From the NCBI RefSeq assembly GCF_034259205.1, contig NZ_CP139487.1, forward strand, positions 310,001-374,000: a stretch of DNA of 64,000 nucleotides. Direction: 5' to 3'. How positions within the stretch are numbered: position 1 is the first letter of the stretch; each line of letters starts with the position of its first letter. Under the pieces are notes generated by a model. It was given only the letters and a program-made list of their open reading frames with translations. It did not search any database and was not told where the DNA came from. Shown here one piece after another: positions 2,836 through 63,189 of this stretch. This stretch comes from Peredibacter starrii (GTDB taxonomy: Bacteria > Bdellovibrionota > Bacteriovoracia > Bacteriovoracales > Bacteriovoracaceae). The position numbers were made by a program, and so were the translations under genes.

Positions 2836-3179
2836 GAGCGGAGTATAGCACGAATGAGAGGATACCACCTTGGCAAAACCAAGGTGATATATCGGCAATT
2901 TATTTGTTCGATGGGAACGCTAACAGATATGTGCAGGATGTGTGTTTTTGCTGCCGATTCTCATGAAACTCTCGTCAGTCCATTCGGACCGTAACGTTGT
3001 TAGCAGACTCTACTAAGCATTTCAAATGCCATGGGGAAAGCCACAATATTTCAACATCTTACGATTTAACCAATAATGTTGCGGGGTTTTTTGTCACATT
3101 AGGTCGGGGTGTTATTCCCGAAATCGCTTAAGAAATCGAGAAAATAGGCTTAAAATCTACCATTACCGAGGGAGTAGTT
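2836..3179. other. 344-bp gene-free stretch upstream of the Hpt gene
   Basis: No convincing gene is seen. It holds the promoter of the minus-strand methyltransferase and, near the right end, a TAAAAT -10-like box at 3151-3156 before the Hpt gene. A 7-bp inverted repeat, GCTAACA at 2919-2925 and TGTTAGC at 2998-3004, brackets about 70 bp that could fold but matches no RNA I know. Confidence 0.4.
2842..2850 (-). promoter_or_regulatory. Extended -10 promoter giving a probably leaderless message
   Basis: TGCTATACT on the minus strand ends 6 nt before the ATG at 2835. No good -35 and no Shine-Dalgarno sequence are visible. The same nonamer precedes the beta-lactamase gene at 16191. Confidence 0.5.
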
Positions 3180-3446
3180 ATGGAAGTACCTGAAGCTATG
3201 CAAACTCGATATGTGGAGAGAAGAAAGCAGGATCTGGAAGTATGCCGGAAGAACCTTGCCTTACAAAAATTCTCCGAACTTGAAAAAGTCGGCCATCAAT
3301 TAAAAGGCAATGGTGTCACATTTGGTTTTGATGATATTTCCGTGATCGGAAAAAGAATGGAAGTTGCCGCTGCCGAGGCCAATGTTCACGAAATGGAAAA
3401 GGCCCTTAAGGACCTTTCCCATTGGGTAAAGCAACATCTTAATTAA
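3180..3446 (+). CDS. Stand-alone histidine phosphotransfer (Hpt) protein
   Basis: The 88 residues form one Hpt domain. The phosphoacceptor is predicted as His39 in a GHQLKGNGVTFGF motif, matching the family's H-x-L-K-G...-G signature. Hpt proteins shuttle phosphate between receiver domains in phosphorelays. No kinase is adjacent. The convergent NtrC-type regulator, whose gene overlaps this one by 8 bp at the 3' end, is an obvious partner candidate, but that is inference. The start is an ATG with a GAGGGAG site 4-10 nt upstream. Confidence 0.85.
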   Translation: MEVPEAMQTRYVERRKQDLEVCRKNLALQKFSELEKVGHQLKGNGVTFGFDDISVIGKRMEVAAAEANVHEMEKALKDLSHWVKQHLN

Positions 3447-4836
3447 GGTTCATCTCTTTTAATTTGCGATAAAGAGTTTTACGATCGATGCCAAGATCTT
3501 TGGCCGTTTGCTCTTTGGCACCATCATTCTTATCGAAAATATATTGAATGTATTTCTTTGAAAGCTCATCCAGAGTCACTGGCTTTTCATATTCAAAGCT
3601 CACACCAATTTTATTCTCCTGAGGTGTCTCTCCACCCGTTGATGGATAAGCGTCTTCAGTCGGAAGATCTTCCGCTTGAATAAACTCAGATGTCGTAAGC
3701 ACAACCGCTCTTTCAATCGCGTTTTCAAGCTCACGAACGTTACCTTTCCATTCATGGGCCTCAAGTTTTTGAATGGCGTCTTTATTGAAACCCTTCACAT
3801 TCACATTGTTCATGACTGCGAATTTTTTCAGGAAGTACTCACTCAAAGGAAGAATATCATCTCTTCTTTCTCTTAGCGGTGGCATATAAATGGGAATTAC
3901 ATTTAAACGGAAGAATAAGTCTTCTCTGAATCTACCTTCCGCCACTTCTTTACGAAGGTCTTTATGGGTAGCACAGATAATTCTCGCGGTGATATCTCGG
4001 TATTGGTTCTCACCGATACGCTTAACTTTTCGCTCTTGTAGTACACGCAATAATTTTGCCTGCAGTGGAAGAGTCAGGTCACCAATTTCATCTAAGAACA
4101 AGGTACCTTTATTCGCCTCTTCAAAGAGACCAACTTTCTTATCATGAGCACCAGTGAAGGCACCTTTGGCGTGACCGAATAGCTCTGATCCGAGAAGGTT
4201 CTCCGGAATGGCCGAACAGTTAATCGCAATGAAAGGTCCGTCGCGCTTATCTCCTAATTCGTGAACAGCTCGAGCAATAACTTCTTTACCTGAACCAGAT
4301 TCACCTGAGATGAGAACGTTGGCCTGACTACTTGAAACTCTTTTCGCGAGTTCAAGTGCCTTTTTAAATCCTTGCGACTTACCAATGACGCCCTTAAGTC
4401 CAAGAAGGTCTTCCTGGAAAAGACTTTTTAAATTTGTGTTCTCTTGTTGAACCTCATTTAAAAAGAGAGCACGTTGAACAGAAATAAGAAGCTGTGGGAT
4501 ATGAAGAGGTTTTAATACGAAATCGTAAGCACCTGCTTCAATCGCTTCAACTGCGGTTTCAACGCTTCCTTCAGAGGTCATGAGAATAATTGGAAGAGAC
4601 GAGTTTGAACGTCTGATCCTGCGAATAAAATCCATCCCAGACATCACCGGCAGTTTTAAATCCGAGATAACAACATCAGGTTCAACTCGCTTATTTTCAA
4701 TTTCAATGAGGGCCTCTTCAGCATTGCCGAAGGCAAATACCTTATAACCACGTTGTTTAAAGAAACTTGATAGAAGGTCCAATAGGTCCAGATCGTCGTC
4801 GATTAAAGTGATGGTGGCGCTGTTTTTGAGTTTCAC
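3439..4836 (-). CDS. NtrC-family sigma-54 activator (REC-AAA+-Fis)
   Basis: A 465-residue response regulator. The receiver domain spans residues 7-122 with predicted phosphoacceptor Asp59 and Lys109. The AAA+ domain spans ~148-385 with Walker A GESGSGKE (178-185), the sigma-54-contacting GAFTGA loop (225-230) and Walker B LFLDEIGD. A Fis-type helix-turn-helix ends the protein (AKDLGIDRKTLYRKL). The start is taken as GTG at 4836, with AAAGGA upstream. The open frame extends further, to 4932, but without receiver homology. Four sigma-54 promoters lie within 3.4 kb, so it may control them. No cognate kinase is adjacent. Confidence 0.93.
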   Translation of the reverse strand: MKLKNSATITLIDDDLDLLDLLSSFFKQRGYKVFAFGNAEEALIEIENKRVEPDVVISDLKLPVMSGMDFIRRIRRSNSSLPIILMTSEGSVETAVEAIEAGAYDFVLKPLHIPQLLISVQRALFLNEVQQENTNLKSLFQEDLLGLKGVIGKSQGFKKALELAKRVSSSQANVLISGESGSGKEVIARAVHELGDKRDGPFIAINCSAIPENLLGSELFGHAKGAFTGAHDKKVGLFEEANKGTLFLDEIGDLTLPLQAKLLRVLQERKVKRIGENQYRDITARIICATHKDLRKEVAEGRFREDLFFRLNVIPIYMPPLRERRDDILPLSEYFLKKFAVMNNVNVKGFNKDAIQKLEAHEWKGNVRELENAIERAVVLTTSEFIQAEDLPTEDAYPSTGGETPQENKIGVSFEYEKPVTLDELSKKYIQYIFDKNDGAKEQTAKDLGIDRKTLYRKLKEMNLN

Positions 4837-52116: not shown

Positions 52117-52182
52117 GAAAACGAGACTGACCATTGTGGTCGGTTAAATTTTTGGATCTCGATTCTTACAAGGAGTACGTTG

Positions 52183-53013
52183 ATGGGCTTAAGAATCAAC
52201 ACCAACATTGCCTCGCAAGAGGTACAAAAAAACCTGAAGGTCAGTAATGCCCAACAGGAAGCGGAGTTTTCAAAACTCTCGTCTGGTAAACGAATCACGA
52301 AATCTGCGGATGATGCCGCCGGTTTGGCGATTGCTAAGAAGTTAGAGGCCGAAACACGAGGTCTGCGTGTTGCTGGTCGAAACGCAAACGATGCTATCTC
52401 AATGGTTCAGGTTGCCGAAGGTGGTCTGAACGAAACGAGTAACATCCTTACCCGCTTGCGTGAATTATCCATTCAGGCCGGATCGGACACAGTGGGTGAT
52501 ACTGAAAGAGGTTATCTCTCGCTGGAGTATGAACAACTAGTTCAAGAGGCCGATCGTATTTCAAAAACCACTTCTTTCAACGGCCGACCACTCTTAAAGG
52601 GTGAAGGGAACACACTACAGTTCCAAGTCGGTGCGTATGGTGGCGAAGATAACCGAATCGAATTTGATGCCGCATCGACGGATGCTTCATCAGAGTCTTT
52701 AGGTATCGGTGGCTCGAATATCCGGGATAAACAAGGTGCCATTGATAACCTAGAGCGAATCGACAACGCCATCAACAAGGTGAGTGCATTCCGCGCTAAC
52801 TTTGGTTCGATTCAATCGCGTCTACAGTCGACCATCAACAACCTTGATGTTGCCACTGTAAACCAGGAAGCTGCCCGTTCACGTATTGAAGATGTTGATG
52901 TGGCAGATTCAACAGCGAAACTTGCATCGTCTCAAATCAGAAATGCTGCAGGTACCGCTACTCTGTCTCAGGCCAACCAATTAGGTAACAGTGCTCTGAG
53001 ATTGATCGGTTAA
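52183..53013 (+). CDS. Flagellin
   Basis: 276 residues, a short flagellin with D0/D1 domains and only a small variable centre. N-terminus GLRINTNIASQEVQKNL and FSKLSSGKRITKSADDAAGLAIAKKL, C-terminus EDVDVADSTAKLASSQIRN with the helical LSQANQLGNSALRLIG. AAGGAG precedes. A TTG lies one codon upstream of the ATG. It sits on a sigma-28-like promoter with its own terminator. Export needs FliS, encoded on the other strand at 61.4 kb. Bdellovibrio carries several flagellins, so other copies are likely elsewhere. Confidence 0.97.
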   Translation: MGLRINTNIASQEVQKNLKVSNAQQEAEFSKLSSGKRITKSADDAAGLAIAKKLEAETRGLRVAGRNANDAISMVQVAEGGLNETSNILTRLRELSIQAGSDTVGDTERGYLSLEYEQLVQEADRISKTTSFNGRPLLKGEGNTLQFQVGAYGGEDNRIEFDAASTDASSESLGIGGSNIRDKQGAIDNLERIDNAINKVSAFRANFGSIQSRLQSTINNLDVATVNQEAARSRIEDVDVADSTAKLASSQIRNAAGTATLSQANQLGNSALRLIG

Positions 53014-53848: not shown

Positions 53849-54616
53849 ATGAAAATTGCTGCGATCTCTGATGTCCACGTTAAAACGCCTCACGACGAAG
53901 CTGATAAGCTTCTGTCGGCGTTTCTGGATCATCCAGAGGTCCAATCCGCTGATTATGTCCTGCTTCTGGGTGACATCTTCGACCTCATGTGCGGACCGCA
54001 TGAAGAGTATATTAAACTCTACTCGCATTTATTTGATCGCATGGATGCCCTTCACAAAAAAGGCAAGAAGGTCTTTTTCCTGGAAGGGAATCACGATGTT
54101 CATTTGCAAGGCCTCTTCTTAAAACGCTGGCCCAACTTTGAGATTCTCTCAGAGCAAACTCCGGTGATTGAAAAGATCGACGGAAAACTTTATTACTTCT
54201 CACACGGTGATGAGCATGAAGTAGATAATGAGGCCTATCAGCGCTACAAAGAAATCATTCACTCCGCTCCACTTCGTTTTGTGGCAAATCAGATCATGCC
54301 TTACGCCGTTTTAAATTACGTAGGCGAGAAGGCCTCGAAGATCTCTCGTAAAAAAGGCTCGCGAAAATTCGATGCTGAACTTGTGCGTAATCGTTTCCGC
54401 AATGGTGTGCAAACTACCACGAAGGGCGAGTTTGATTTTGTGATCGGTGGCCACAGTCACGTGAAAGATAATTATACGTTACCTGGTTCCAACAGTGTTT
54501 ATCTCAATAACGGTTACGCTTTAAGAGAGAACACCTTTCTCTTAATTGATAACCACGTTCCAAAGTTCATCACTTTCGCCAGCGGAAGTACTTCCGCTAG
54601 TGGCGGCCAAGCTTAA
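53849..54616 (+). CDS. Calcineurin-like phosphoesterase, LpxH-like
   Basis: 255 residues. Metal motifs SDVHVK (DxH), LLGDIFDLM (GDxxD), EGNHDVH (GNHD), FSHGDEH and GGHSHV in order, as in UDP-2,3-diacylglucosamine diphosphatase-type enzymes of lipid A synthesis. The LpxH lipid-binding insert is partly different, so the substrate could also be another nucleotide or lipid. ATG 53849 is chosen because the tag of the previous gene ends at 53847 and an extended -10 precedes it. An ATG at 53840 is in frame. Convergent with recN. Confidence 0.72.
   Translation: MKIAAISDVHVKTPHDEADKLLSAFLDHPEVQSADYVLLLGDIFDLMCGPHEEYIKLYSHLFDRMDALHKKGKKVFFLEGNHDVHLQGLFLKRWPNFEILSEQTPVIEKIDGKLYYFSHGDEHEVDNEAYQRYKEIIHSAPLRFVANQIMPYAVLNYVGEKASKISRKKGSRKFDAELVRNRFRNGVQTTTKGEFDFVIGGHSHVKDNYTLPGSNSVYLNNGYALRENTFLLIDNHVPKFITFASGSTSASGGQA
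54581..54598. repeat. 18-bp perfect palindrome at a convergent gene end
   Basis: AGCGGAAGTACTTCCGCT is its own reverse complement, extended by CGCC..GGCG. It encodes Ser-Gly-Ser-Thr-Ser-Ala at the phosphoesterase C-terminus, 15 bp before recN's stop. There is no T-run, so it is unlikely to be a classical terminator. Confidence 0.6.
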
Positions 54617-56241
54617 GAAAGCTGCGCCATTGACCGAACTTCTTTCAGAATCATTTTCCCCGAAATCTCTTTCACGGTAGATTCTGTTCTCGCCTCTTTG
54701 TCTTGCGACTGAATATCCTTGTTCACAATGATAAGACTTTCAGCAAACTGAGCAATTTGTGGAAGGTGAGTAATGGCAATGACCTGGCCATGGGCCGCCA
54801 CTTCCGCCAGCGCTTTACCAATGCTATTCGCGGTATCTCCACCAATCCCGGTATCAATCTCATCAAAGAGGAAGATGCTGATGGAATCGTCACTCGCAAG
54901 AATCTGGCGAAGACTCAGAAGAATACGAGATAGCTCACCACCAGAAGCGATGTCTTTAATCTTGAAGTAACCTTCGCCTGGATTGGTTTCTGCCAAAAAT
55001 TGCACACGCGAATATCCCGTCTCAGAAAGCTCTTCTAGAATTTCCAGGTCCAGACGGATAGTGGCCCCGTTCATTTTAAGAAGACGGACTTTCTGAGTGA
55101 GTTCTGTACTTAACTTTTTACAAAATTGAGAGCGGGTCTTATGAAGTTTATCTGCCTGGGTCATCAATTTCTTTTGCAGCGATTGAATCTTCCCTTCTAG
55201 TTCATCACAGTTAACTTCCAAGCTCTCAAGGGTATTTTTCTCTTTTAGAAATTCCACTTGTGTTTGCAGGATGGTTTCAACATTCCCGCCAAACTTTTTC
55301 TTCAACTTCTGATACGAGTCGAGACGATCTAAGACACCTTCCAGATCCGCAGGATCGATTTCCATATTGAGCTTGCGATCTACAATGTCATTTAGGCTAT
55401 GAATACGATCATCAATCTCTGATAGAAGTTCCATCTGGTCTTGAAAGAGATCCGGGTTTTTAGAGAATAGGGAATTCAAAAATTTTATTTGTCCCAGCAT
55501 TCCTGGAACGCCATCGTTTCCATCAAAACTTTCTTTTACCTGGTAACAAAGCTTTTGGGTCTTCTCGATATTCATTAATAAATTTTTCTTCTTCAGGAGA
55601 TCTTCTTCATCCTGGGAGGAGGGATTTAGTTTCTCAATCTCCTGAAGTTGAAAATTTAAATAATCCAATCGCTGTTCCCGATGGGTCTTTGATTGAATCA
55701 ATTCGGCTTGCTCTTTTTTAAGGGCCTTGAGTTCTCTTAGCTCTTCTTGGTAGGCAGAGAGTTCAGGCAGTTGCTTTGAGTAATGATCCAGCAAGTATAG
55801 CTGGTAACTTTCTGAGAGAAGTTTCTGGTTTTCAAACTGTCCCACGAGATCAATGAACTTACGGGCAAAGCTTGCAAGAAACGTCACTGTACAGGTCAAA
55901 TGATTGATGTAGGTCTTGGTAGTACCGTTCTTATAAATAAGACGTTTGATGACAATTTCATTCCCTTCAATGGGAAAGCCTTCTGATTCCAGAAACGCCT
56001 TAACTTTGTCATCGGTGCAGGTGAAAGAAGCTTCAATGAGAGCGCATTCAGTTTCACGGCGCACGACCTTTTTGTCGGCCCTGCCACCGAGAATAAGCTG
56101 AAGAGCATCGAGGACAAGACTTTTACCAGAACCGGTTTCACCGATAATGGCATTAAAGCCGGGACGAAAGCGAATGCTTTGGTTTTTGAAGGTTGCGAAA
56201 TTTTGAATGACTAGATTTTTGAGATGGAATTTGGCGTCCAT
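54613..56241 (-). CDS. recN: DNA repair ATPase RecN
   Basis: 542 residues of the SMC-like RecN family. N-terminal ATP site FNAIIGETGSGKSLVLDALQ, two long coiled-coil stretches in the centre, and C-terminal SGGELSRILLSLRQIL (ABC signature) with IFLFDEIDTGIGG (Walker B) and HLPQIAQFA. Acts in double-strand break repair with RecA. The start is ATG 56241, with GCGAGGA upstream; the frame continues a little further without homology. A strong promoter with repeated TTTACGTA lies just ahead. Confidence 0.95.
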   Translation of the reverse strand: MDAKFHLKNLVIQNFATFKNQSIRFRPGFNAIIGETGSGKSLVLDALQLILGGRADKKVVRRETECALIEASFTCTDDKVKAFLESEGFPIEGNEIVIKRLIYKNGTTKTYINHLTCTVTFLASFARKFIDLVGQFENQKLLSESYQLYLLDHYSKQLPELSAYQEELRELKALKKEQAELIQSKTHREQRLDYLNFQLQEIEKLNPSSQDEEDLLKKKNLLMNIEKTQKLCYQVKESFDGNDGVPGMLGQIKFLNSLFSKNPDLFQDQMELLSEIDDRIHSLNDIVDRKLNMEIDPADLEGVLDRLDSYQKLKKKFGGNVETILQTQVEFLKEKNTLESLEVNCDELEGKIQSLQKKLMTQADKLHKTRSQFCKKLSTELTQKVRLLKMNGATIRLDLEILEELSETGYSRVQFLAETNPGEGYFKIKDIASGGELSRILLSLRQILASDDSISIFLFDEIDTGIGGDTANSIGKALAEVAAHGQVIAITHLPQIAQFAESLIIVNKDIQSQDKEARTESTVKEISGKMILKEVRSMAQLS

Positions 56242-56261
56242 ATTGTCCTCGCTTGAGAACA

Positions 56262-56290
56262 ATACTACGGATGATTTACGTATGGGTCAA
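56262..56290 (-). promoter_or_regulatory. Sigma-70-type promoter of recN with repeated TTTACGTA
   Basis: TTGACC (56285-56290), a 17-bp spacer and TAGTAT (56262-56267) on the minus strand. TTTACGTA occurs at 56275-56282 in the spacer and 56306-56313 upstream, 31 bp apart, a possible operator pair. The reported Bdellovibrio LexA motif TTACN3GTAA is not matched. Confidence 0.7.
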
Positions 56291-56319: not shown

Positions 56320-57222
56320 CTAATCTTTTTTAGAAAAGACAAATTTATCTCTGATAGTTTCAAAATACAGACGTTCAGGGTTCTTAATCAGGGTGATTTT
56401 TTTCACCTTTGAACCATTAATAGTCACCACATCCTGATCATCTACATTAATCGCTACTTGCCCATCCAATGTAAGTGTCACGGAATGATGCGGAGGAAGA
56501 ATTTTTAATTGAATAGGGGCAGTATCTGGTACGACGAAAGGGCGGTGAATAAGTGAATGAGGGCAAATGGGAGTGAGTACCAGGCCCTTCACATCCGGAT
56601 GCACAATCGGTCCACCGGCCGCCATTGAATAAGCAGTTGAACCCATCGGTGAAGAGATGATGATTCCATCTCCCGCAAGATTATAGATGTGCTCATGGCC
56701 CATCTCTGCACGAAGATAAATCATACGAGCAATATCATTCTTCGCCAGAACAGCATCATTAAAGAAGTAATCCGAGAAATGCTCCTCGCCTTTTTTAGAA
56801 ATGCTTACATGGAAAAGGGGCTTGGTCGTAGTCTCATACTTCCCTTCCATAATATTCGCCAGAAGGTCAAAGTATTCATTCTTGTTGAACTCAGTAATAA
56901 AACCCAAACGTCCCAGATTAATTCCGAGAACCGGAATCTTGGTATTGATTCTACGGCAGGCGCCAATCAAAGTACCGTCGCCACCAAGGGAGAACATCAT
57001 ATCTACTTTGTTATGAAAGTTCTTAGAGTTCCAGAACTCAAGACCTTCAGTAGATTTCTGTTTAAAGAATTTATGAACTCGTTCTTTATCTTCTTCACGG
57101 AAGACCACTTGTTTTTTACGACGAAGAAGCCAGGCGCAGAGATTCGGTAACAAATTATAAAATTCCGGAGTGGAATTTGGTTTAAGTGTAATACCGATAA
57201 TTTTGAACGAAGGTTTCTTCAT
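56320..57222 (-). CDS. nadK: NAD kinase
   Basis: 300 residues. SLGGDGTLIGACR (GGDG), GINLGRLGFITEF, NDAVLAKNDIARMI, and GDGIIISSPMGSTAYSMAAGGPIVHPDV are the substrate and catalytic motifs. Makes NADP. It is the last gene of the minus-strand run after the two-component genes, with 2 bp spacing, and precedes the recN promoter. Confidence 0.95.
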   Translation of the reverse strand: MKKPSFKIIGITLKPNSTPEFYNLLPNLCAWLLRRKKQVVFREEDKERVHKFFKQKSTEGLEFWNSKNFHNKVDMMFSLGGDGTLIGACRRINTKIPVLGINLGRLGFITEFNKNEYFDLLANIMEGKYETTTKPLFHVSISKKGEEHFSDYFFNDAVLAKNDIARMIYLRAEMGHEHIYNLAGDGIIISSPMGSTAYSMAAGGPIVHPDVKGLVLTPICPHSLIHRPFVVPDTAPIQLKILPPHHSVTLTLDGQVAINVDDQDVVTINGSKVKKITLIKNPERLYFETIRDKFVFSKKD

Positions 57223-57224
57223 GT

Positions 57225-57584
57225 TTATTCCGTCATGGTCCGCATGGCCTGTTCGAGATCATCAAACGGCTTATTAAGTAATCGACATTGATAAGCATTG
57301 GCACGAGAAAGAACTTGAGGTGAGTTATAAGCAGTCATGATAACGAACTTTTGACTGATCTCTTCCGGGGAGAATTTCTTTTTTGACTCTTCAATGACGT
57401 CAAATCCAGAAATGTCCTGAAGCATAAGATCGCAAATGATTCGGTCATAGTGATTATTCAAAATAAGATCGATGGCAATTTTACCACTGGCAGACACGTC
57501 CACCTTGAGCCCACGACGCTCAAAAAGCTTCTTAAGAGATTGTTGGATGAGGATCTCGTCCTCAATAATCAAAATGGTATTCAT
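57225..57584 (-). CDS. Single-domain response regulator
   Basis: 119 residues, receiver domain only (IIEDEILIQQSLKK, acceptor Asp in IICDLMLQDISGFDV, Lys in LLNKPFD). No DNA-binding output. Its ATG overlaps the stop of the histidine kinase upstream, so they form a pair. Likely signals by protein contact, as CheY does. Confidence 0.88.
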   Translation of the reverse strand: MNTILIIEDEILIQQSLKKLFERRGLKVDVSASGKIAIDLILNNHYDRIICDLMLQDISGFDVIEESKKKFSPEEISQKFVIMTAYNSPQVLSRANAYQCRLLNKPFDDLEQAMRTMTE

Positions 57585-59290
57585 GTTCTAGGTAGTGTGA
57601 GGCGGAAGTGAGCGCCTGTACCGTTATTATTAACCAAATATTCTAAATTACCACCCATTTTTACTGCCAGATTTCGAGAGAGCACCAGCCCTAGTCCAGT
57701 ACCTTGAGATTTAGTCGTAAAAAATGGTTTGAAGAGCTGAGAAGATTTGTCTTCAGGTATACCTGGTCCGTTATCGATAACATCAATAAAGACCGACGTA
57801 GCGTCCGAACTCATCGAGAGTTCAATCTGGCGTGTCGTGGTCATGTTTTTCATGGCCTGAGCGGCATTCACGATTAAGTTAAAGAGAATCTGTACGACGA
57901 AGATTAAAGGCACATCCAACATAAGGTTTTCAGTGTCATCTTTGTAATTGATGGTCTTTCTGACCTCACGGCCCTCACTCTTGGAAAGGGTGATTGACTC
58001 GTCTACAATTTTTTTAATTGAAACTGGCTTGGTTTCAGTCTGAACCTGATAAAGATTTGAGAAGTTCTCAATAATCACCTGACAGCGATTAATGTTCTTC
58101 TGAATTTCTGCCATGAGATCTTTACTGTCTGTACTCACATCCATGGTGGCAAAAAGCTGAGAACCCAGTTTAAGCCCAAAGAGTGGATTACTTAATTCGT
58201 GGCGAAGAGTATTCAGGAGTTCTCCCAGAAGAGAAATACGCTGAAAGTGGAACAAATCAAAAGCATAGTGGCGAAGTTCATCGCTATCATAAAGATCCAG
58301 AGTAAATGGACCTTCAACTTTCTTATTAAAGAAAATGTCTTTCTCTTGAAGCTCGCTGGTGTAGAGGTCATTCATGAAAGATGTTCCCGTCACACCATCA
58401 CGAATACGCAGTGGAAGTGGAAAGTCTTTCAGGCACACGCGAAGTTCAGAGATTCTTTTGTCTGAGAACTCTTGATCAATTAAACGTTCAAAGTGAGGTT
58501 GTAAGAGGTCAATACAGGTTTCAAACAGCTCGATTTCGTCTTTGCTGTAACTTAAAAAGTCATGACGAGAAACCACTGCAACTAATGAATATTTACGAGA
58601 CATGACCTCTTTAGCAAGAAAGCTTCCATTGAATGGAAGATTCATTTTGGTAAAAGAGTCAGTCGAAAAAGATTTGATTTTTGATTTTTTGATCGAATTA
58701 AAGAAAGCGTTAAATTCTTTAACCTCAACCAGACCTTGAGTTTTTTCCCCTCTCCAGATTGTTCCAAGAAGTTCGGCCTTGGTCTGACCTTTGAGGTGGA
58801 GAATAATAATGGAACTTTCAAACTTCTGAAGAAACGGAACATCGAGAAGTTTTTCAACCAGGCTTCGAAGACTATGAGACTCATTGGAAATGAGATTCAC
58901 TTTTTTAATGATCTCATCCCACAGGTCTTTAACGTTTTCACCAGGATTCAGGGAAACACTGGAATAGATTTTCTTCTCAATTCCTTGGGTGGTTTTAATA
59001 AAGCTATCAAAAGCATCACTACGCGTAAGAAGTCCCGTCTCGGCGGTCGCCCCATCTAGAGTGCAGGCAATGTTCTTTCGATAGTAGGGAAAATCGCAAT
59101 GCTCGCCATCGGCGAAGTTCACCCAGAGCCTGTCGCCTTTCTTAAAAAGTGCGATTTGCGCCTCTGCCTCTTCCACCATTTTGAAACGGTCGAGATTCAG
59201 ATTTTCAAAATCAGAAAGGATAAGGGGATCGATGAATAACTTTACGTATTCAGCAGCTTCTTGGTCTGAGGGATGAGATCTATTTTCCAC
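57581..59290 (-). CDS. Soluble GAF-type histidine kinase in the flagellar operon
   Basis: 569 residues, no membrane helix. The first ~330 residues are sensor, ending in a GAF-like part (LVAVVSRHDFLSYSKDEIEL). HisKA has LNTLRHELSNPLFGLKLG (phosphoacceptor His), and HATPase has NLIVNAAQAM, DNGPGIPEDKSSQLFKPFF, TKSQGTGLGLVLS. GTG start at 59290, overlapping the previous gene by 49 bp. Its partner regulator follows at once. Location downstream of fliD-fliS points to control of the flagellum or its sheath or filament, by inference. Confidence 0.85.
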   Translation of the reverse strand: MENRSHPSDQEAAEYVKLFIDPLILSDFENLNLDRFKMVEEAEAQIALFKKGDRLWVNFADGEHCDFPYYRKNIACTLDGATAETGLLTRSDAFDSFIKTTQGIEKKIYSSVSLNPGENVKDLWDEIIKKVNLISNESHSLRSLVEKLLDVPFLQKFESSIIILHLKGQTKAELLGTIWRGEKTQGLVEVKEFNAFFNSIKKSKIKSFSTDSFTKMNLPFNGSFLAKEVMSRKYSLVAVVSRHDFLSYSKDEIELFETCIDLLQPHFERLIDQEFSDKRISELRVCLKDFPLPLRIRDGVTGTSFMNDLYTSELQEKDIFFNKKVEGPFTLDLYDSDELRHYAFDLFHFQRISLLGELLNTLRHELSNPLFGLKLGSQLFATMDVSTDSKDLMAEIQKNINRCQVIIENFSNLYQVQTETKPVSIKKIVDESITLSKSEGREVRKTINYKDDTENLMLDVPLIFVVQILFNLIVNAAQAMKNMTTTRQIELSMSSDATSVFIDVIDNGPGIPEDKSSQLFKPFFTTKSQGTGLGLVLSRNLAVKMGGNLEYLVNNNGTGAHFRLTLPRT

Positions 59291-59682
59291 TGGGTTAAGT
59301 TATCTTTTAATTCATACTTAATCAATTCTTCCAGCGCCACCAGGTCTTGCTTTGTTTGCGCCTGGTTCATGGCCTTAAGAATAAACAGTAAGTGGATATG
59401 AGATTCTTTGATCCCGGGGATGGTTTGCTGCTTCCGGGACATAATGGTCTTGGATAACAAGGTCGTCAGTTCCACGAACTGGCCAATATCCTGGGTCAGT
59501 TTACTGATCTTCCGGTTCCAGAAGAATTCACGTTCTGGACTAAATTCACCAATGGTCTGAATGTCGAGGATAATATCTGATAAAAACTCTAAGGTTAACC
59601 CTATAGTGTCAACGAGGAAATCTTGATTATAAGAAGGAGACGTCATCCCTGACATAGGTCCATCCTTGATATTTATAATCAA
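59242..59682 (-). CDS. Unknown helical protein in the flagellar/TCS operon
   Basis: About 146 residues (possibly 137 from an internal ATG). I do not recognise it. It is mainly helical, without membrane segment or Cys. FSPEREFFWNRKISKLTQDIG and HIHLLFILKAMNQAQ are its distinctive parts. It overlaps the kinase gene by 49 bp and the gene upstream by ATGA. Such overlaps suggest co-translation with the kinase. It might be a sensor accessory or chaperone. Confidence 0.6.
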   Translation of the reverse strand: MIINIKDGPMSGMTSPSYNQDFLVDTIGLTLEFLSDIILDIQTIGEFSPEREFFWNRKISKLTQDIGQFVELTTLLSKTIMSRKQQTIPGIKESHIHLLFILKAMNQAQTKQDLVALEELIKYELKDNLTQWKIDLIPQTKKLLNT

Positions 59683-61025
59683 ATGTTAACTTCGTTTCTT
59701 TTTAATGTCACAGAAAATAATTCGTGAAGGGCCTCAAGGGCCTGGTGTTCCTCAGAATAGGTCAGAAAACTGTTCTGGGCCTGCTCAAGGAGGGTTTGAC
59801 CATTATTTTGTCCACGGCGAATGCGATAGAAGTCCAGAAATGGTCTCAACAGAGAATGTGAGGCCGAGATTTGTTCTGCCACCACGTCGATCTCGCGCAG
59901 GTTCTTAAGATGACCTTCGATTTTATTCGCGTCCGAGGTCTCGGCCTTAGACTCGTGATAAACGGTATCAATTGAAACCATCGCATAATCATGAAGACGT
60001 AAAAACTTTGTCAGAACTTCGTGATGAGTTTTAAGAAGTTCAATCTGTGCCGGAAGACACTTCGTCACTTCAAGATTCACGTCAAAGAGATTAAGAAGAA
60101 AATTCCAAAGAACTAGATGTGATTGATAAAACGGATAGTGATCATCAGTACTGTTGTGATTCTTTAAATAGGCCCCGAAAATGTTTTCGTGATCCGTGCT
60201 GTAGACGGCATATTCAGAATCAAGGGAGCGTTCTTTATTTTCAATGACCGGTGCCACTAAAGGCAAAAGAGCATGGGCCTTAAAAGTTTTGGTCTTAGAG
60301 CTAATGAAGAAATGACCTTCTCCATATGGAACAAGATTGAAGCCCTGAAAGTTTGAAGAAAGGAAAATTCCTCGTCCACCTGCCTCACAAAACTTAATGG
60401 CAGATAGAGTGGCCGGACCAATATACAAAGTTTGGGAAACATCCGAGACCAAATCGACTTCAGAAATGTCTTTGACTTGAAGATGAGAATAAGTCTGAGT
60501 GAGAAGATTAATGAATTCTTCCTGTTCATTTGAAGGAAATAAACTCGTGCTCGTCATGCCATAAGCAATCTGGCGTATCGAACCCATTCTTTCCTGGCCA
60601 CGTAGATTTCCACGAAGGCCCAGAATGTTTCGATAAACGTCCTGTAAATGAAACGTTAAAAACGGTGCACGTGCTTTAAGGGTCAGTAAATATGATGACC
60701 ATAGATCAGGAACAATCAGTTCGCCATTTTTTAAATGAGGACCGATTTTTGAAATAGCATTAACATTCCCATGAACTTCCCAGCTCGTTTCTTTCAGAGA
60801 AAGATTTACGCTGATGTCATAGTGAGAGGCCAGGACCTTCTTTGAATCTGTTGTAAATCCGGTAAGGACCGGTGAGGTGCGATCATAAACGATTCCGAAT
60901 GCCTCTTCATTCACCAGAAGAGTCAGTTCAAAATCTTTTAAATGCGAGTGATATTTCTCGAGGACTTGAATCGTTTCAAATAAAAAATAGGCGTCGTCTT
61001 GTTGGATGATTAATAGCTTTTTCAC
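59679..61025 (-). CDS. GT9-like (heptosyltransferase-fold) protein beside flagellar genes
   Basis: 448 residues. The N-terminus MKKLLIIQQDDAYFLFETIQVL and the middle LYIGPATLSAIKFCEAGGRGIFL resemble the two Rossmann domains of GT9 heptosyltransferases (the second echoes their GxxTxxxHLAAALG motif, but is degenerate). The ~150-residue C-terminal part is helical. It lies between a FliT-like gene and an unknown gene in the fliD-fliS operon, where Maf-type flagellin glycosyltransferases occur in other bacteria. Flagellin glycosylation is the hypothesis. An inactive GT fold is the alternative. Confidence 0.5.
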   Translation of the reverse strand: MKKLLIIQQDDAYFLFETIQVLEKYHSHLKDFELTLLVNEEAFGIVYDRTSPVLTGFTTDSKKVLASHYDISVNLSLKETSWEVHGNVNAISKIGPHLKNGELIVPDLWSSYLLTLKARAPFLTFHLQDVYRNILGLRGNLRGQERMGSIRQIAYGMTSTSLFPSNEQEEFINLLTQTYSHLQVKDISEVDLVSDVSQTLYIGPATLSAIKFCEAGGRGIFLSSNFQGFNLVPYGEGHFFISSKTKTFKAHALLPLVAPVIENKERSLDSEYAVYSTDHENIFGAYLKNHNSTDDHYPFYQSHLVLWNFLLNLFDVNLEVTKCLPAQIELLKTHHEVLTKFLRLHDYAMVSIDTVYHESKAETSDANKIEGHLKNLREIDVVAEQISASHSLLRPFLDFYRIRRGQNNGQTLLEQAQNSFLTYSEEHQALEALHELFSVTLKRNEVNI

Positions 61026-61027
61026 AG

Positions 61028-61375
61028 CTACTTCACATCATTCAAGTTGTAACCCTTGATGTTCTCGCGGCTGCGTGAAGTCTGATCAATCTCAAGCTTA
61101 AGGGTCGCCTGGTATTCTTGAAGTTTTACCAGAAGTTTTTCATCCAGCTTCTTGATGTACTCAATCTGGCGATTAAGATCAGCACGTTTTTCGTCCGTGA
61201 CTTCATTCCAGTCAATTTGAACCGAGATCTTTTCAATGATTTGGAGCAAGCGCTCACGATTTTCTGTAAAGCTGTCCAGTTGTGTGCCTTGTGAAAAGTC
61301 ACACTCGAGGATGGCCTCAGTCATCGTGATCGCCTTCATAATAAATTCTTCGAAGAGGAGGGTTAGTTTATCCAT
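61028..61375 (-). CDS. FliT-like small helical protein
   Basis: 115 residues, all helical, following fliS where fliT normally lies. FliT is the FliD export chaperone. The sequence itself (LLFEEFIMKAITMTEAIL...RRADLNRQIEYIKKLDEKL-type) is too short and variable for a firm family call. Its ATG overlaps the fliS stop by one base. Confidence 0.5.
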   Translation of the reverse strand: MDKLTLLFEEFIMKAITMTEAILECDFSQGTQLDSFTENRERLLQIIEKISVQIDWNEVTDEKRADLNRQIEYIKKLDEKLLVKLQEYQATLKLEIDQTSRSRENIKGYNLNDVK

Positions 61376-61770
61376 TAAGCGCTCTTAACTGGGGTTTGAG
61401 TTTTAAGGTTTTTAATCGCCTCAGTCCAACCGTCGTAAAGAGTGTTAAGTACTTTCAGACAACCTTCAAGATGACTTTTCTCAATCTTGATGTTCGCCTG
61501 TGTACTTGAATAAAGGATATAGTCGTAAAGTGAAGCAAGTTCTTTTGCCACTTCACCACCAACTTCAAAGTCGAGACTGTTAGACAGTTCAACGATGATG
61601 TCTTGCATTTTGCCGATGTACTCGCCTTTCTTAGCAACGTTCTTTTGTTCGATTGCTTCGATGGCCTTCTTACAGTTTTTAATAGCAGCTTGATAAAGCA
61701 TAAGTAGGATTTGTTCCTTACTTGCTGTCTCTACCGATGTCTTTTTATATGCACCTAAACCGTAGCTCAT
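61375..61770 (-). CDS. fliS: Flagellin export chaperone FliS
   Basis: 131 residues. GAYKKTSVETASKEQILLMLYQ is the family N-terminus, followed by the KGEYIGKMQDIIVEL and LYDYILYSSTQANI helices. It binds the flagellin C-terminus and prevents early assembly. AGGAGGG lies before the ATG. Follows fliD by 33 bp. Confidence 0.94.
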   Translation of the reverse strand: MSYGLGAYKKTSVETASKEQILLMLYQAAIKNCKKAIEAIEQKNVAKKGEYIGKMQDIIVELSNSLDFEVGGEVAKELASLYDYILYSSTQANIKIEKSHLEGCLKVLNTLYDGWTEAIKNLKTQTPVKSA

Positions 61771-61803: not shown

Positions 61804-63189
61804 TCATAATTGCTGAATGCCCGGTGGGGCGGCAAAACCTGCAAGGCCCGCACCCTGACCTTTGATCTTAGAAATTGTCTCTTCCAGTCGGGCAAACTTC
61901 GCCTTCAAAATATCTTCTTTCTGGGCGATCGTGCGCTGACGATTGGCGATCTGACGATCAATCTGATTGATTTGGCTTTGTAGACCACCCTTACGTGTTG
62001 GTAACACACCGGTGGGTTGAGAAAGTAGCGTTTGTGCTGTCTCATCCAGGATGTCGATAAAGCCCTTCGACTTTCCATTTTCCAGGGAGTACTTACCAGT
62101 CAGGGTTTGTGATACTGACTTGTAATCTTTTGAAAGCGCCTGTTCGAATTTGGCCTGATCAAATTTCAAAAGACCGTCACGTTGGAAAGTCACACCCAGG
62201 TCACCCATTCTCATGGGACCTGCGTCAGTCATTACCGATGTGAAGACCGCTGAACGAACCCTGCTTTCAATGGTAGTAAGTGTTGAGTCACCACCCAGTG
62301 TACGTTGCGTATCAGTTTTCTCATCGAGTGAGTTTTGCTCTTTAATGAATTTTAAAACGTTGTTGATGTTATCGATGAGGCTGTTGACCTTACCACCGAT
62401 CTTCTGAACGTCTTCCGTGATTTCAATATTGATCTCTTCACCCGGAAGGGCCTTTTTAAGATCAATCGTCACACCCGGAATAAGATCCGTGACTTTGTTA
62501 CTTGGAACTTCAATTTCAAATCCATCGAGTTTTACCTTGGCATCTTGAGCTGGTCGCTCTTGCTCAAAGTAAATATCCACTTCGCCGTCTACCAGATAAA
62601 GATATGGGAATTCAACGCGGTTCCCATCACCCGTTTCCGTCATTGAGACAATCAAGCGATATGGTTCATCGGAGTCTTTACCATCGTTTACGACGTTCGC
62701 CCTGATGCCTAATTCCGAGTCACCGTTAATGAGTTTGGCGATTCCAGAGAGAGTCGCGTGCTTTTCATCCACGTAGATTTCTTTTTCATCTCCGTTAGGA
62801 AGATTCACACGGATATATCCAACCCCAACATAGGTCTTATCTTTGTCTTCCACACCATTACTAATGGCCGAAGATTTCTGAGCGAGTTGCACGACTTCAA
62901 GTTGATACTTACCAGGATCGGCGATGTTCTTATCTGCCGTAACATTAATGTGTTTGCTGTCACCGGTATTGATTGCTAGTTCGCGGAGTGAACGGGCGTT
63001 CTTATTTTTTAGAACTTCACCACGCATGTTTTCCACCAGCGTAGTAAGCTGCTGCACGAGAGATTTTTTGTCGTTGATCTTGCCCTTACGGACTTCCATC
63101 TGCTGAATAGGAATTTTTTCAGCTTCAACAATTTGCTGAACAATGTCCTTAGGCAGACCTGAATTGATTGATCCGAACGAAATCCCCAA
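61804..63189 (-). CDS. fliD: Flagellar filament cap protein FliD
   Basis: 461 residues. FliD_N (GLPKDIVQQIVEAEKIPIQQM with NDKKSLVQQLTTLVENMR) and FliD_C (LGGDSTLTTIESRVRSAVF, LGVTFQRDGLLKFDQAKFEQAL) are clear, with a C-terminal coiled coil ending AQKEDILKAKFARLEETISK. The start is TTG at 63189, with GGAGG upstream. It heads the minus-strand operon that continues with fliS. Caps the filament so that flagellin can polymerise. Confidence 0.95.
   Translation of the reverse strand: MGISFGSINSGLPKDIVQQIVEAEKIPIQQMEVRKGKINDKKSLVQQLTTLVENMRGEVLKNKNARSLRELAINTGDSKHINVTADKNIADPGKYQLEVVQLAQKSSAISNGVEDKDKTYVGVGYIRVNLPNGDEKEIYVDEKHATLSGIAKLINGDSELGIRANVVNDGKDSDEPYRLIVSMTETGDGNRVEFPYLYLVDGEVDIYFEQERPAQDAKVKLDGFEIEVPSNKVTDLIPGVTIDLKKALPGEEINIEITEDVQKIGGKVNSLIDNINNVLKFIKEQNSLDEKTDTQRTLGGDSTLTTIESRVRSAVFTSVMTDAGPMRMGDLGVTFQRDGLLKFDQAKFEQALSKDYKSVSQTLTGKYSLENGKSKGFIDILDETAQTLLSQPTGVLPTRKGGLQSQINQIDRQIANRQRTIAQKEDILKAKFARLEETISKIKGQGAGLAGFAAPPGIQQL

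Follow-up and report, generated by a model that had tools for sequence, protein, structure and literature searches.

The filament operon around fliD and fliS was analyzed in a stretch of 64,000 nucleotides from Peredibacter starrii (contig NZ_CP139487.1, positions 310,001 to 374,000 of the forward strand), which is called the window throughout and lies inside a closed contig of 4.15 Mb. Downstream of fliD and fliS, the operon encodes a FliT-like protein, a 448-aa GT9-like protein, a helical protein, a histidine kinase (HK), and a receiver-only response regulator (RR). Taken as a whole, we give an even chance to the reading that this is a reduced filament operon, in which a glycosyltransferase turned into a pseudo-glycosyltransferase by decay and the HK-RR pair is a separate, old constituent. 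An earlier note on this DNA had seen in the same genes a local system for flagellin glycosylation and its sensing. Judged from its sequence, the 448-aa protein is unlikely to glycosylate flagellin, because its active-site and donor-lobe motifs are lost and two partners, a Maf N-terminal-like (Maf-N-like) protein and a second GT9 protein (GT9-A), are gone. Coordinates below are window positions, and L, G, g, and f numbers are labels for the loci, genomes, genera, and families compared; the named relatives in the comparison set are mostly Bacteriovoracaceae and Bacteriovorax stolpii metagenome-assembled genomes.

The GT9-like gene is located at 59679..61025 on the minus strand, and its product appears to consist of a decayed heptosyltransferase fold (residues 1-266) and a mainly helical C-terminal domain (residues 267-448). 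An AlphaFold2 model generated from 22 sequences had a mean predicted local distance difference test score (pLDDT) of 86.5 and a predicted template modeling score of 0.83. The six best Foldseek matches of this model were all WaaC chains, with E values from 1.3e-5 to 3.7e-4. Alignment of residues 1-266 with VIA-align yielded the highest Z score, 14.8, with the GT9 protein 3tov (root-mean-square deviation 3.7, 243 residues aligned), followed by WaaC (14.2-14.4), WaaF (12.9), a 9grx chain (10.9), TibC (9.4), and others of at most 8.6, while residues 267-448 were barely probed by the fold search. The modeled structure confirmed the GT9 heptosyltransferase fold and, with it, the GT9-like identity that the earlier note had assigned. 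The family itself could not be recognized in the sequence: PF01075 was listed in Pfam for none of 20 members from the window genus at E values up to 1, and it matched all four long GT9 proteins that were scanned (5.2e-12 and 3.1e-13 in L049, 3.8e-9 in L067, 6.4e-7 in L068). A search of the PDB with a profile of the 448-aa protein yielded no meaningful match. A quick tree with 121 rows joined the window genus with g16 and the GT9-B proteins of g35 in one group on the GT9-B side, at a Shimodaira-Hasegawa-like approximate likelihood ratio test value of 98, and GT9-A stood apart. By sequence comparison, the 448-aa protein is a shortened ortholog of GT9-B. A match to ELMO_CED12 (4e-6, above the Pfam cut-off) was rejected as spurious because it extends over a portion of the C-terminal domain, was found in 7 of 20 members, and belongs to a eukaryotic family.

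The loss of motifs was quantified in a single alignment of 64 long GT9-B proteins from the window's family with 23 copies of the window genus from 22 genomes. The GD motif of the long proteins, the Asp of which we take to be the catalytic base as in WaaC, was replaced by YF in all 23 copies; the catalytic column contained Asp in 62 of 64 long proteins and Phe in each of the 23. An Asp in the donor lobe was likewise present in 62 of the 64 and in none of the 23, and a cluster of four cysteines (CxxC...C...C) in 63 of 64 and again in none. The lobes were compared in a second alignment of 15 long GT9-B proteins and 20 genus members. The donor lobe was the best conserved lobe among the long proteins (43.9%), yet it showed the lowest similarity to the window genus (11.7%), in which it is about 54 residues shorter. 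The respective similarities were 22.8% for the N-lobe and 18.6% for the C-terminal domain. None of the genus matches contained an internal stop codon, and the ratio of nonsynonymous to synonymous substitution rates (dN/dS) was 0.108 for the close pair L021/L039; two other pairs were saturated at silent sites. The gene is not a pseudogene, and as far as the one pair tested can tell, it is under purifying selection.

The relatives of the window genus reveal what might have been lost. FliS was found in 115 of 129 genomes of the family, and its surroundings were compared at 90 loci from genera other than that of the window, and nadK is reached in 69 of these. All 69 contain the FliT-like gene and none a TPR gene; a Maf-N-like gene occurs in 66, the helical gene in 67, the HK gene in 65, and the RR gene in 65. 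Two GT9 open reading frames (ORFs) were present in 62 of these loci, three in 2 (split ORFs), and one in 5. The exact order fliD-fliS-fliT-MafN-GT9-GT9-helical-HK-RR-nadK was observed in 59 of the 69. Of the other 21 loci, 18 end at most 0.5 kb past the last recognized gene, L093 extends for another 1.3 kb, and L141 and L148 are true exceptions; L141 (G243) contains the cassette HK, followed by 6.9 kb without a recognized RR or nadK gene. The Maf-N-like protein was found in 84 of 129 family genomes, and PF20157 was matched by 11 of 18 members at E values up to 5, the best value being 1.1e-6. Two genera resemble the window in different degrees. The single genome of g16 has a reduced form identical to that of the window, and the three loci of g35 have kept Maf-N and encode two short GT9 proteins (404-462 aa).

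Within the window genus, the GT9-like protein was found in 21 of 23 other genomes (none in G010 and G020; the matches in G008 and G017 are fragments), and the gene is present in 21 of 22 genus loci of the named collection (L021-L041). Neither a Maf-N-like gene nor a second GT9 gene occurs at any of these 21 loci, the Maf-N-like profile matched none of 26 window-genus genomes, and a TPR profile found nothing among 22 genus loci (L021-L042). The full helical gene is missing in three of the 21 loci (L026, L031, and L033). The order of the block recurs across the genus, and the block is therefore not a product of chance; together with the recurrence in the family and in other families of the phylum, this identifies it as a real conserved unit. 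At L018/L036 and L019/L035 (G022 and G023), about 870 extra bases without a long sense ORF separate the FliT-like and GT9-like genes, and in L018 an ORF of 268 aa runs on the opposite strand (2864-3667). G012 holds the whole block twice (L157 on C7, L158 on C39), with GT9-like copies 50% and 63% identical to that of the window; two organisms may be mixed in this assembly (contamination 5%).

The search was extended to the phylum, in which the long GT9-B profile matched 169 of 191 genomes, a number that will include unrelated heptosyltransferases. By eye, and among the matches listed, many of the best GT9-B matches lie 2-5 kb behind fliS. Twenty loci of other families were picked by hand, mostly with GT9-B close behind fliS; this choice is biased to linkage, and thus the following counts are not frequencies in the phylum. 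The FliT-like gene is followed by a TPR gene in 20 of 20 loci, with three intervening ORFs in L177. Two GT9 genes are present in 13 loci, one in 6, and none in 1; a Maf-N-like gene occurs in 12, the helical gene in 10, and an HK gene behind the cassette in 15. In f6, the arrangement TPR-MafN-GT9-GT9 was found in five of seven loci and the HK gene in all seven. The five loci of f8, f12, f15, and f19 show TPR-GT9 and no HK gene behind it, and L182 has TPR-HK-RR without a GT9, Maf-N-like, or helical gene. Including L065-L068, a complete or incomplete cassette is present in 11 families besides that of the window, and the consensus operon reads fliD-fliS-fliT-like-[TPR]-[Maf-N-like]-GT9-A-GT9-B-helical-HK-RR.

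We hypothesize that the operon as it stands in most other genera of the family, with Maf-N and two full GT9 proteins beside the flagellin chaperone, is a cassette for cytoplasmic glycosylation of flagellin, as its layout suggests. The window genus has lost Maf-N and, at the locus, GT9-A, and its GT9-B ortholog has become a presumably inactive pseudo-glycosyltransferase. Since the donor half decayed and the rest was kept, the protein probably now serves a binding function toward flagellin or its chaperones. It would bind flagellin, or the complex of flagellin and chaperone, before export, with that half of the former enzyme which recognized the acceptor. That a flagellin glycosyltransferase was converted within its own operon to a non-catalytic assembly factor, with g35 as an intermediate, g16 at the same end state, and the HK-RR pair wired alongside, is a tentative proposal to which we assign somewhat less than an even chance. 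If it is true, the family spans a natural series that begins with a complete cassette for flagellin glycosylation and ends with a remnant of which only the fold is left, and this series would allow testing of what a glycosyltransferase contributes to filament assembly beyond the sugar. The protein is also a cautionary case, because a GT9-like fold does not imply a working transferase.

Several results weigh against this interpretation. The binding role is a best guess, for which retention of the C-terminal domain and the position in the operon are the only grounds, and the activity of GT9-A, GT9-B, and Maf-N on flagellin in the relatives is putative. Loss of the motifs is not proof that the GT9-like protein is inactive, which stays a matter of sequence interpretation. 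GT9-A keeps the catalytic Asp in only 57 of 64 proteins, so that the window genus is not the only case of decay. The TM-scores with WaaC in the Foldseek search were moderate (0.34-0.41 by query, 0.46-0.54 by target), and the GT9 tree has long branches and unsure details. The dN/dS value comes from one close pair and was the highest among the seven genes compared there. The first Maf-N member that was scanned fell below the PF20157 cut-off, and at L148 (G264, g138) fliS is accompanied by none of the cassette genes, with 13.7 kb left of 16.6 kb.

In two alternatives, the GT9-like protein has kept an enzymatic activity. The first, a functional glycosyltransferase that acts locally on flagellin and has a pair that senses glycosylation, perhaps tied to a sheath, would fit the conserved linkage to fliD and fliS, the long GT9-A and GT9-B proteins and Maf-N in most relatives, and the HK-RR genes beside the cassette in several other families. 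It is very unlikely, as all 23 genus copies have lost the active-site Asp, the donor-lobe Asp, and the Cys cluster, the partners are gone from the locus, and the pair and GT9 occur without each other in both directions. Hardly more probable is a rebuilt active site in which both the base and the sugar donor have been exchanged for others. The mean column identity of 63% within the genus, an invariant D10 near the lost Asp, and the purifying selection in the close pair are what such an enzyme would lead one to expect, but a donor lobe that is about 54 residues short and devoid of its motifs, with the GD to YF exchange in every copy, is hard to reconcile with it. The decayed glycosyltransferase remains the reading that we prefer.

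The HK and RR genes form the second subject of the operon. The HK gene (57581..59290, minus strand) encodes a 569-aa kinase with HisKA and HATPase_c domains, H364, and the N and G boxes; the core is NtrB/AtoS-like, with AtoS as the best NCBIfam match, far below its cut-off. The protein is probably cytoplasmic, as a simple hydropathy scan yielded a single high window, which lies inside the ATPase domain. The RR gene (57225..57584, minus strand) encodes 119 aa with Response_reg alone (PF00072, 1.7e-15), including D52 and K105. The kinase of the earlier note was thereby upheld, whereas its GAF domain is unproven, since no GAF family was listed in Pfam for any of 22 kinases. The sensor part matched no PDB chain at E values up to 1; it was found in 103 of 129 family genomes and could not be recognized in the 20 loci of other families, in one of which (L165) the kinase contains a PAS domain. 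Among 15 genomes of other families with an operon HK, this HK was the best match of the genome to the HK core of the family in 14 and the third best in G122. A two-component pair in the filament operon, as the earlier note had described it, was thus seen in several families of the phylum.

The pair and the glycosyltransferases turned out to be separable. GT9 genes without HK-RR behind them are found at L117, L145, L147, and L096 of the window's family and at L065, L066, L068, L171, L178, L179, L181, and L183, and L182 is the opposite case. FlhA was looked for in 19 genomes, and six family genomes (G090, G118, G168, G245, G244, and G257) lack both FlhA and FliS. HK-RR-nadK is kept in three of them (G090, G118, and G168), with adjoining recN in two, and no HK match was found in G245, G244, and G257, which are 88%, 91%, and 67% complete. 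Conservation of the gene order in non-flagellated relatives had been named in the earlier note as evidence that would count against its proposal; such conservation was found for HK-RR-nadK(-recN) only. The HK-RR pair has belonged to the filament operon since long ago and can persist without flagella and without GT9, which speaks against a glycosylation sensor. In genus g23 (L153, L154, and L155), FliS and FlhA had no match and HK-RR-nadK is kept, which offers a natural test of the pair without flagella.

Two roles come into question for the pair, a flagellar checkpoint and a wider one. Our likeliest guess, although short of evens, is an assembly checkpoint similar to FlgS, in which the cytoplasmic kinase would read a protein of the filament stage, such as a chaperone or possibly the helical protein, and signal via the stand-alone receiver. 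Cytoplasmic kinases that monitor the assembly of the flagellum have been described (PMC7064773). The occurrence of the operon kinase as best match in other families and its NtrB/AtoS-type core, with the highest hydropathy window in the ATPase core, agree with this role. Against it stand the three g23 genomes that retain the pair without FliS and FlhA, the absence of a sigma-54 or DNA-binding domain from the receiver, and the sensor part that is not recognizable in other families. A cell-wide task tied to nadK and recN, concerning redox or DNA damage, with the pair merely sharing the flagellar transcript, would explain HK-RR-nadK in the three genomes without FliS and FlhA, two of them with recN, and the distance of 2 nt between RR and nadK in the window. 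This role is unlikely, because neither nadK nor recN was listed behind the operon HK in 15 loci of other families, and nadK-recN lies behind a cassette without HK at L065, L066, and L179. The link of HK-RR with nadK-recN is therefore confined, in the loci seen, to the window's family. The genes that follow HK-RR in L165 and L182 are presumably rsmD and coaD. A reading in which the pair belongs to nadK-recN instead of the flagellum was given up in view of its presence behind cassettes of other families that lack nadK-recN.

The operon matches no described system that was recognized in the open-licence literature searched, and its parts are of known kinds. The GT9 heptosyltransferases WaaC, WaaF, and 3tov share the two-lobe GT-B fold with residues 1-266 of the 448-aa protein; in contrast to them, this protein has no PF01075 match, no catalytic Asp, and no donor-lobe Asp, and it has an extra C-terminal domain of 180 residues. 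TibC is an example of GT9-related enzymes that can modify protein (PMC4358343). The four-Cys cluster of the long GT9-B relatives is reminiscent of the TibC iron finger, with a spacing of CxxC-x5-C-x4-C in L049 compared to C339, C342, C358, and C370 as given for TibC in the same source; the window-genus copies lack the cluster and thus the four-Cys iron finger of the TibC/BAHT type. The substrate of TibC/BAHT is described there as an autotransporter, in contrast to the flagellar setting of the cassette. Aeromonas Maf1 is described to transfer sugar onto flagellin in the cytoplasm before export (PMC4065374). Compared to the Maf glycosyltransferases (PF20157/PF01973), the Maf-N-like protein in the cassette of the relatives, encoded next to the flagellin chaperone, corresponds to the N-terminal part only. 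In FlmG of Caulobacter, TPR and GT-B are combined in one chain according to PMC7591256. In the operons of other families, GT9 genes come after a TPR gene, as separate genes, and the TPR neighbor is absent from the loci of the window's family. FlgS/FlgR and FlrB/FleS, as presented in PMC7064773, are flagellar two-component systems; as in them, a kinase for which the simple hydropathy scan gave no evident membrane span is linked to flagellar genes. Unlike FlgS/FlgR, the pair of the window is located in a filament operon, and its regulator lacks the sigma-54 activator domain. On a two-component pair that belongs to the filament operon in predators of the Bdellovibrionota type, the open-licence papers searched yielded nothing. 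In B. bacteriovorus, fliD and fliS are given as bd0611 and bd0612 in PMC9140294, so that the other cassette genes would be expected immediately behind them, and the open-licence papers searched contained nothing relevant on Bd0614-Bd0619. Concerning the sheath that the earlier note had considered, Bacteriovorax stolpii is listed among the polar sheathed flagellates in a review (PMC7175336).

Other sugar-related genes of the family gave no tie to the cassette. The Maf domain PF01973 was detected in the window genome only below the threshold, at C1:713336, about 340 kb off the block, and was discarded as a flagellar Maf because the region resembles surface-sugar biosynthesis. NeuB (PF03102) was found in 76 of 129 family genomes, the window genome included, and a link of the cassette to nonulosonates was dropped, as NeuB has no evident tie to Maf-N by eye. 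The region C1:706000-740000 of the window genome (L162 and L163) resembles a surface-polysaccharide locus with NeuB and may supply nonulosonates unrelated to flagella.

All seven ORFs from fliD to RR were present on the minus strand at the positions of the earlier note. The gene for the filament cap, fliD (61804..63189), encodes FliD_N and FliD_C (PF02465, 6.4e-14; PF07195, 2.7e-47). It is separated by 33 nt from fliS (61375..61770), the gene for the flagellin chaperone, which matched PF02561 (5.3e-39) and, above the cut-off, TIGR00208. The block continues on the same strand into the downstream neighbors nadK (NAD kinase, 56320..57222; PF20143, PF01513), 2 nt behind RR, and recN (DNA repair ATPase, 54613..56262; TIGR00634, 1e-107, below its curated cut-off), 57 nt further on. 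Overlaps of 1-49 bp had been reported between the genes, and overlaps of 1 nt (fliS/FliT-like), 4 nt (GT9-like/helical), 49 nt (helical/HK), and 4 nt (HK/RR) were indeed found; the FliT-like and GT9-like genes are an exception, with a 2-nt gap. The overlap of GT9-like and helical genes results from a TTG start at 59682. From the sequence, an ATG at 59655 behind AAGGA is more likely to be the start, which would yield 137 aa and a gap of 23 nt to the GT9-like stop. The helical/HK overlap is also 49 nt in six of the seven plus-strand genus loci in which both genes are readable and 43 nt in L020. The GTG start of HK is kept in the three loci without the full helical gene and is thus probably real. 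Scans for promoters and terminators gave counts at the level of shuffled sequences (14 versus a mean of 15.6, and 10 versus 7.9), and therefore the borders of the transcription unit are not settled.

The FliT-like gene (61028..61375, minus strand) would encode a small helical protein and putative chaperone, as its conserved position suggests. It had no family above the cut-off in Pfam or NCBIfam in the window, and two relatives matched FliT (PF05400) below the cut-off (0.013 in L049, 0.017 in L165). The helical protein (59242..59655, minus strand, 137 aa) is predicted to be a four-helix bundle (pLDDT 88.1) and has a C-terminal motif that is conserved among relatives. Foldseek yielded no match for it at E values up to 0.001. 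A role as histidine phosphotransfer protein or FliS-like chaperone was not adopted, since the best VIA-align matches were designed four-helix bundles (Z 14.7), which is uninformative for helical bundles; nothing was concluded from an entry of flagellin with FliS at rank 10 (E 0.56). In many relatives (for example L049, 6854-7495), the helical protein has about 70 additional N-terminal residues, which are missing in the window genus. The rows of g19 and g33 also lack this extension, despite a long GT9-B. Near the far side of recN, a short flagellin gene of 277 aa is encoded on the plus strand (52180-53013). Two plus-strand genes lie between recN and this flagellin gene, and the set recurs by recN in the longer genus loci.

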